Positions 6,180 to 6,552 of a stretch of 64,000 bases of DNA are shown here, one piece after another. Origin of the DNA: Steroidobacter gossypii (GTDB lineage Bacteria > Pseudomonadota > Gammaproteobacteria > Steroidobacterales > Steroidobacteraceae); contig NZ_JAEVLS010000005.1 of assembly GCF_016801985.1 (NCBI RefSeq), positions 682,001 through 746,000 on the forward strand, given 5' to 3'. How positions within the stretch are numbered: the first letter of the stretch is position 1; each line of letters starts with the position of its first letter. The notes beneath the pieces were generated by a model. That model was not told the DNA's origin, made no database searches, and saw nothing but the letters and a program-made list of their open reading frames with translations. Position numbers and translations under genes: made by a program.

Positions 6180-6515
6180 GGGCCTGTAGCACAACGGTTA
6201 GTGCAGGGGACTCATCGAAAAAGGTGCCTTCGTGCGCGAAAGCCACGAAGTGGACGGGATGAATTCAGGGAACCCTTCCGCCTTTCCCGTCGGGGAGGCG
6301 TGGCAACCCTGAGCCAAGCCGGCGGTACACCGCCGGAAGGTGCAGAGACTACCTGAGGGCTTTAGCGCCCTTGATAACAGGCTGGAGCGTCCCGCACCCC
6401 ACCGCCGCCGCGAAATTTTTCGCCGGCGCGGGTGAAGAGATAGTCCACTCCCTTTGGAAACATCGGGCAACAGTGAATCCCTTGGTTGCAGGTTCGAATC
6501 CTGCCGGGCCCACCA
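6180..6515 (+). tRNA. ileX: tRNA-Ile(CAU), interrupted by a group I intron
   Basis: Exons 6180-6215 and 6476-6515 join into a complete cloverleaf with encoded CCA. The acceptor GGGCCTG (6180-6186) pairs with CGGGCCC (6505-6511), with one G-U. The D stem is GCAC/GTGC, the anticodon stem GGGGA (6206-6210) pairs with TCCCT (6478-6482), and the T stem is GCAGG/CCTGC with loop TTCGAAT. The joined anticodon loop is CTCATAA with anticodon CAU at 6213-6215. Base pair 1-72 is G-C, so it is not an initiator. The anticodon arm and variable region (ACUCAUAAU then CUUGGU) resemble E. coli tRNA-Ile2, which needs lysidine at C34 (TilS) to read AUA; elongator Met is the less likely alternative. Confidence 0.93.
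6216..6475 (+). ncRNA. Self-splicing group I intron (IC3-like) in tRNA-Ile(CAU)
   Basis: A 260-nt insertion lies immediately after anticodon position 36 and ends in a terminal G (6475). P1 forms between exon CAT (6213-6215) plus the first intron C and the guide GGTG (6222-6226 region), with the expected U-G wobble at the 5' splice site. P2 is a hairpin at about 6228-6250 closed by a GAAA loop. P3 pairs GGACG (6252-6256) with CGTCC (6388-6392). P4 pairs TCAGGG (6265-6270) with CCCTGA (6307-6312). The Q-type element CCCTGAGCCAAGCC (6307-6320), R element GTGCAGAGACTA (6340-6351) and S element AAGAGATAGTCC (6435-6446) are near-textbook, and P7 pairs GACTA with TAGTC. It has no homing endonuclease frame. 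It resembles the smaller intron of Azoarcus tRNA-Ile(CAU) and cyanobacterial tRNA-Leu introns. Confidence 0.95.
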
Positions 6516-6552
6516 CTTCGTTTGCACGCACGAGAGATCGGCCCCGGCGCTT

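Follow-up and report, generated by a model that had tools for sequence, protein, structure and literature searches.

The question raised by this locus is whether a tRNA cloverleaf that is broken in its anticodon loop belongs to a working gene for tRNA-Ile2(CAU), what kind of intron breaks it and how far the cell would depend on its removal. The window, that is, the whole stretch of 64,000 nucleotides that was analysed, was searched for tRNAs, Rfam families and protein domains, and the locus was compared with the rest of its draft genome, with relatives, with a class sample and with a named genome collection.

A tRNA-Ile2(CAU) gene split by a group I intron

ARAGORN finds no tRNA in the window when introns are disallowed and a split tRNA when they are allowed. 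Once positions 6216-6475 are taken out, 76 nt form a complete and clean cloverleaf, the tRNA being interrupted after U36 and the exons joining at CAT/AAT; the exact junctions given in an earlier sequence-only reading of this DNA are the same. Its naming of the tRNA stands as well, in that the E. coli place closest to the spliced tRNA is annotated tRNA-Ile with anticodon CAT (81.6% over 76/76 nt). The tRNA carries C4-G69 and C5-G68, which we take to be the pairs recognised by TilS, and empty tRNA-Ile2 alleles with identical sequence flanking the site are present within the window's genus. The gene is made up of the following parts.

6180..6215, + strand: 5' exon of tRNA-Ile2(CAU), anticodon CAT at 6213-6215 (spliced 76-nt cloverleaf; similarity to E. 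coli tRNA-Ile(CAT))
6216..6475, + strand: group I intron of 260 nt without an open frame of a known family (RF00028, 63 bits, E 1.3e-13; no Pfam match)
6475..6475, + strand: terminal G of the intron, marking the 3' splice site (sequence)
6476..6515, + strand: 3' exon of tRNA-Ile2 with the CCA encoded (spliced cloverleaf)

That the inserted segment is a group I intron, as had been proposed, is borne out by a covariance search, in which RF00028 matched 6216-6475 with a score above its gathering cut-off of 50 bits and was the sole Rfam family above gathering score in the 64-kb window. The core helices and the terminal G are present. A U.G pair stands at the 5' splice site, U6215 pairing with G6224 of the guide, and the intron ends in G6475; the final G of the orthologous introns used below was demanded by the search rule. 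Folding of the precursor gave a z of -3.39 against 100 shuffles. It is confirmed, in gene and in junctions, that tRNA-Ile2(CAU) is split here by a group I intron.

The name that ARAGORN gives to the gene is different. With introns allowed it moves the splice 2 nt further 5' and calls the window copy tRNA-Gln(CTG), as it does in 24 of the 31 loci scanned in all, which would make the locus a tRNA-Gln(CUG) gene. Group I introns are preceded by U at the 5' site and have G as their last base, and such a splice violates both rules, leaving C at the end of the 5' exon and T at that of the intron. The body of the tRNA is nearest to E. coli tRNA-Ile(CAT), the empty alleles read CAT, a normal tRNA-Gln(CTG) exists in the genome, and the split tRNA starts with G where both tRNA-Gln genes read in the genome start with T. 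A glutamine tRNA is hardly credible on these grounds, and the gene is read as tRNA-Ile2(CAU) throughout. An essential gene can be missed or misnamed by tRNA finders in this way.

The absence of an endonuclease frame, noted earlier, was also found here. Three overlapping ORFs in the region 6216-6475 have no Pfam match, none thus being an endonuclease of a known family, and a homing intron with its own endonuclease was rejected for the window copy on that basis. Among 156 extracted introns of the family the longest has 334 nt, and no stop-free stretch exceeds 106 aa. On the - strand a 109-aa ORF containing ARQDSNLQPRDS runs over 6198-6527 of the window; it has no Pfam match and is presumably spurious, of the sort often predicted antisense to tRNA genes.

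Fold of the intron and the hairpin between P7 and P3

The fold was examined in an alignment of 65 introns picked from the 156 extracted (142 distinct) at an identity below 84% and a length of up to 290 nt, a limit that excludes 14 longer introns. The structure counted comprised P2, P3, P4, P5, P6, P6a, P7, P7.1, P7.1a, P8 and P9. Standard pairs occupy 95.8% of 3756 cells, and 32-46% when the partners are slid by 1-3 columns. Changes on both sides were seen in 35 of 58 pairs (shuffles mean 20.1, 0/500 as high), and the covariation score reached 0.354, compared with 0.131 in shuffles and no more than 0.068 in the slid controls. The window copy keeps 56 of the 58 pairs, both mismatched pairs lying in P9. 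Its elements are listed below; percentages are of cells paired, and fractions are of pairs that change on both sides.

6223..6226, + strand: internal guide GGTG, of which G6224-G6226 pair with CAU 6213-6215 (P1, U.G at the splice site; sequence)
6228..6250, + strand: P2 (6228-6234/6244-6250) with GAAA loop; 85.5%, 7/7
6255..6261, + strand: P3 5' strand, partner 6388-6394; 98.7%, 4/7
6265..6312, + strand: P4 (6265-6270/6307-6312) and P5; P4 99.7%, 3/6
6313..6341, + strand: P6 and P6a (6319-6325/6330-6336); P6a 99.6-100%, 7/7
6347..6351, + strand: P7 5' strand (guanosine site), partner 6441-6445; invariant in 65/65
6352..6381, + strand: P7.1-like hairpin, P7.1 6352-6355/6378-6381 and P7.1a 6356-6360/6367-6371; 100% of counted cells
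6388..6394, + strand: P3 3' strand; same covariation analysis
6395..6434, + strand: P8 (6395-6399/6430-6434), variable tip with AATTTTTC loop; 99.1%, 3/5
6441..6445, + strand: P7 3' strand; same covariation analysis
6450..6467, + strand: P9 with GAAA loop, two mismatched pairs in the window copy; 93.6%, 7/7

The P3-P8 core with its P3/P7 pseudoknot was found, and P3 covaries. P7 is paired in 100% and invariant in 65/65, so that covariation is uninformative for it. The outermost P2 pair as drawn is broken in 36/65 rows and one P5 pair in 53/65; the RNAalifold fold moves P5 by one, which pairs it in 65/65. A GGTG stands within the first 60 nt in 156/156 extracted introns.

An enlarged P8 had been pointed out as the peculiarity of this copy. 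P8 length varies freely across the family, and P8 is therefore not the striking part; the main peculiarity is a P7.1-like hairpin domain, about 34 nt long, which separates the P7 5' strand from the P3 3' strand. In the window copy AGACUA (P7 5' strand) is followed by CCUG-AGGGC-loop-GCCCU-UGAUAA-CAGG (6352-6381). The hairpin columns have gaps in 1-3 of 65 rows, and both sides change in 1/4 outer (P7.1) and 3/5 inner (P7.1a) pairs. A strict rule, which asked for a stem with four Watson-Crick pairs that ends no more than 18 nt from P3, was satisfied by 144/156 introns. P3 was not located automatically in 4 of the remaining 12, and the other 8 fail the rule, with P3 misplaced in several; by eye a stem is present in all 12 and includes a G-U pair in L084. 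Directly 3' of P7 the four bases are CCUG in 146 introns, GGGU in 5, GCGG in 4 and GAGU in 1. These counts are of loci with a recognised 3' junction; 14 of 119 loci had none, and by eye 11 of these reach P7 and then a like stem, while 3 stop before P7. Judged by sequence comparison and by trees of moderate support, the window intron appears to carry an extension at the place used by group IA introns on a core that is otherwise IC3-like.

Two structural types at the tRNA-Ile2 site

Introns of group IC3, the Azoarcus type, are small, sit in the anticodon loop of a tRNA and have GAAA in L2 and L9; the Azoarcus tRNA-Ile intron is about 205 nt long. The window copy has GAAA in L2 and L9, a tRNA anticodon-loop host and a small size, but P7 does not lead directly to P3 as in IC3, the hairpin domain intervening. 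The sequence-only reading had compared the locus with the Azoarcus intron and given the latter as shorter. Gene and site are indeed shared; the difference was understated, the window intron being of a separate structural type with the P7.1-like hairpin. With the pre-tRNA-Ile intron of Azoarcus sp. BH72 (group IC3) it has in common the tRNA, the site, the GUG guide, a P2 with GAAA loop and similar sequence at J6/7-P7 and J8/7-P7. The two are 61% identical over 187 aligned nt, the Azoarcus sequence compared being the construct printed in PMC8890501, with the first 8 nt missing; this construct runs from P7 directly into P3 without a hairpin.

According to PMC4498298, what sets the phage T4 td ribozyme apart from the otherwise similar IC3 ribozymes of Synechococcus and Azoarcus is a P7.1/7.2 extension that lies between P7 and P3. 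The extension (P7.1/P7.2) of td and group IA2 introns lies at the same P7-P3 place at which the window intron has one two-part hairpin; the likeness is one of position, and td has a protein gene as host whereas the window intron has a tRNA. The tRNA-Leu(UAA) group IC3 introns of cyanobacteria and some proteobacteria resemble the window intron in placing an IC3 core in the anticodon loop; unlike it, they split the tRNA after U34, and those examined are without P7.1. Gammaproteobacterial tRNA-Leu introns were reportedly described by Vepritskiy et al. in 2002.

Group I introns in bacterial tRNAs are long known (review PMC3984707). In the available part of the tRNAscan-SE 2.0 paper (PMC8450103), tRNA-Ile2 group I introns are reported from Acidovorax and Burkholderia, and absent fMet or Ile2 genes in 36 genomes are explained by group I introns. 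The Acidovorax and Burkholderia introns are, as here, group I introns in tRNA-Ile2 that tRNA finders overlooked, and that part of the paper mentions them without structure. Introns extracted here from Burkholderiales-type records (L034, L035, L044, L054, L084, L104) differ in the sequence of the stem after P7 (GGGTG, GAGTG or GGACG). No description of the P7.1 type in tRNA-Ile2 was recognisable by title in the open-licence literature searched.

Two structural types share the tRNA-Ile2 site, and the textbook Azoarcus type is a minority in these samples. Within the window's family, genome G024 carries at the same site a tRNA-Ile(CAU) intron of 198 nt without the hairpin (L374, on G024:C4). Its identity is 75.6% in a comparison with Azoarcus over 180 nt and 62.1% in one with the window copy over 195 nt. 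When the 369 class genomes were searched by BLAST with the Azoarcus sequence, 11 matches came up, none of them in tRNA-Ile; ARAGORN reads these loci as Leu(TAA) 8, Leu(CAA) 1, Phe(GAA) 1 and Ser(TGA) 1, and we read the Phe(GAA) locus as a Leu-type one with shifted splice. A search with rpoD for an Azonexus-like family found no near relative, the best reaching 70%. Small group I ribozymes are known in large part through the Azoarcus tRNA-Ile intron, a form that proves exceptional at its own site in the samples here; the common sister type bears an extra conserved hairpin.

The window intron may nevertheless be a straight orthologue of the Azoarcus intron, the hairpin having been gained here or lost on the Azoarcus side. 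Gene, site and GUG guide are identical and the cores similar. What speaks against it is that the stem occurs generally among the extracted introns, across beta- and gammaproteobacterial titles. Core trees were made with 19 of the extracted Ile introns, picked by hand; a motif rule removed Leu_L378. In the earlier tree the AU test did not reject a clade uniting Ile(P7.1) and Azoarcus (p-AU 0.311), the P7.1 introns L063 and L144 are neighbours of the Azoarcus and Leu rows, and a tRNA-Lys intron joins the P7.1 rows by a long branch. The later, unrooted tree used the core columns minus the P7-to-J8/7 stretch, with G024 added and Lys_L006 excluded as a long branch. Here Azoarcus and G024 pair (90/64) and the P7.1 introns form one side (94/89), which counts against straight orthology with moderate branch support and long branches between groups. 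The Leu-type introns form another side (93/92), and on that branch P7.1 and Azoarcus types fall together. The Azoarcus types are placed between the Leu-type and the P7.1 introns, and a common origin with gain or loss of the hairpin is therefore as good a fit as two arrivals. Since the unrooted trees agree with it equally well, straight orthology is regarded as a plausible, if not quite probable, account.

Distribution and inheritance

The intron had been taken for a rarity, which the survey contradicts. Among the window's genome and 97 relatives the intron pattern is found in 28/98, the empty pattern in 46/98 and neither in 24/98, and no genome has both intron and empty pattern. Two of the 24 are explained, G016 having a P7.1-type intron of 281 nt behind a variant exon and G024 the Azoarcus type; the remaining 22/98 genomes were assigned neither form. 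In the class sample the pattern occurs in 24/369 genomes, the window's own included, with C as first intron base in all 24. The first intron base was required to be C, G or T in these two sets and C in the named genome collection; a separate scan for introns starting with A gave 1/98 in the relatives set and 0/369 in the class set. In the named collection the Ile2 5' exon followed by C occurs in at least 119 stretches. Among the matches listed, 80 titles are mostly gamma- and betaproteobacteria or plain 'Proteobacteria' and include Dyella, Lysobacter, Luteimonas, Rhodanobacter, Variovorax, Rugamonas, Azonexus, Steroidobacter and Woeseiaceae; single MAGs titled Opitutia and Actinomycetes among them may be misplaced. 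The intron is not rare; it is a member of a common family.

Within the window's genus 7/14 genomes have the intron and 5/14 are empty, the remaining 2 being assigned to neither. Neighbour genes of the window's tRNA lie within about 6 kb of it in 4/5 empty and 5/6 other intron-bearing congeners fetched, and were not found near the tRNA in G013 and G004. Because these neighbours are kept in empty and intron-bearing congeners alike, the tRNA-Ile2 is one orthologous gene. A RpoB tree of 60 genomes (26 intron-bearing, 34 empty) was made without G017, G025, G050, G024 and 12 of the 46 empty genomes, for lack of a full rpoB or by choice; on it the intron trait changes at least 14 times, and well supported branches require 11 of these changes. 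In the intron tree, built from 26 genomes, 8 clades have good support; by our reading among the intron-bearing rows 7 of them match host clades, and the mismatch is a clade of G003, G001 and G011 without G009. Intron and RpoB distances correlate (Mantel, Spearman 0.465, 1/9999 permutations as high). The intron of G009, of the window's genus, has 307 nt and is identical to that at L070, a locus in a record with the title Steroidobacter sp. We read this as inheritance with the host at the genus level together with many clean losses or gains; the trees fit either loss or gain. The P7.1 type supplies many natural variants, and clean empty alleles inside one genus.

Some further observations were made in the relatives. 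The rpoD gene lies about 0.1-0.6 kb from the split tRNA-Ile2 in G178:C1, G405:C1, G131:C188, G403:C3 and G428:C83, and about 21 kb from it in the window's genome. At L006 (G074:C27:99536-99756) a tRNA-Lys(CUU) in a tRNA cluster is interrupted by a group I intron whose P7 is followed by a GCGG/CCGC stem, and the same genome has two empty-pattern tRNA-Ile2 places. RF00028 also matches at L008, L026, L027, L030 and L031, where ARAGORN finds no split tRNA.

Proposed mechanism and dependence on splicing

Our data suggest the following course. In the folded pre-tRNA the anticodon CAU would pair with the guide GUG as P1, and a free guanosine held in P7 would cut after U36. The released 5' exon would then attack behind the terminal G at 6475, ligating the exons, and TilS would turn C34 into lysidine, upon which tRNA-Ile2 could read AUA. 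The P7.1-like hairpin, apparently an insertion separating P7 from P3 in a core that otherwise resembles IC3, may brace the P7-P3-P8 stack by analogy with P7.1/P7.2 in phage IA introns. The intron, which has no endonuclease, would now be passed on mostly with the host and often be lost or regained cleanly. We hold this explanation as a whole to be very probable.

For the question of dependence the tRNA set of the genome was examined. RF00005 gave 50 tRNA matches in the draft genome, which is 97.6% complete; ARAGORN read 46 of them directly, and inspection of the loci gave Gly, Thr and Trp for 3 more. Two contiguous CAT genes, both named Met by ARAGORN, are presumably one initiator and one elongator Met, going by comparison with E. 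coli sequences. Ile(GAT) is present, as is TilS (163 bits, cut-off 93.6). None of the 50 matches is an uninterrupted Ile(CAT), Ile(TAT) or Leu(TAA) gene, and the earlier statement that the cell would depend on splicing, Ile2 being usually single copy, holds for the draft, in which a second copy was not found. The last of the 50 matches, L193 (C11:155945-156016 of the same genome), is a degenerate tRNA-like gene that has an anticodon loop of 6 nt and is followed by an apparent second tRNA 3' end.

The tRNA-Leu(UAA) of this genome (L002, C22:1283541-1283786) is likewise interrupted: another group I intron, one that has no P7.1, sits after U34. This is the genome's second group I match, at 33.9 bits, below the RF00028 cut-off, and an intronless Leu(UAA) was not found in the draft genome. 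Three things make the case noteworthy: the intron's structural type, the occurrence of another type at that site, and the fact that this genome has two split tRNAs, with one copy found of each. As Ile2 and Leu(UAA) were found only in split form, AUA reading depends on splicing, no intact copy having been found in the draft, and UUA reading probably does so too. A second Ile2 copy could be missing, the genome being a draft of the completeness given above.

Codon use was counted in 51 chosen ORFs of the window (17,946 codons), with ATA at 2.45 and TTA at 2.12 per 1000; the ORFs were picked crudely by a GC3 above 0.65, which lowers both values. ATA occurs in 23/51 and TTA in 25/51 of them, and neither in rpoB. 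The rarity of AUA, together with the draft state of the genome and the two mismatches in P9 of the window copy, would suit a dead tRNA-Ile2 gene with a decayed intron, AUA being read by another tRNA. Against this, the exons are intact with the CCA included, nearly all structure pairs are kept, nearly half of the chosen ORFs use ATA, and the 50 tRNA matches hold neither a tRNA-Ile(UAU) nor another Ile(CAU). A dead gene is very unlikely, and the locus is taken as a functional tRNA-Ile2(CAU) gene. In hosts whose sole known AUA-reading tRNA needs a ribozyme, the cost and possible use of the intron are testable.

A bolder view would join these results. The Ile2 site would be held by two separate catalytic-RNA lineages, the main P7.1 type forming an undescribed subgroup that bridges IC3 and IA and Azoarcus being the minority; in hosts with Ile2 and Leu(UAA) both split and single, two guanosine-dependent ribozymes would gate AUA and UUA reading, and splicing could brake genes rich in these codons. 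We consider it speculative and rather improbable in this full form.

Leu-type introns were also observed elsewhere, at L370 (G009), L265 (G013) and L262 and L278 (G403). G009 and G403 carry both Leu and Ile introns, and G013 has a Leu intron together with an empty-pattern Ile2 gene.
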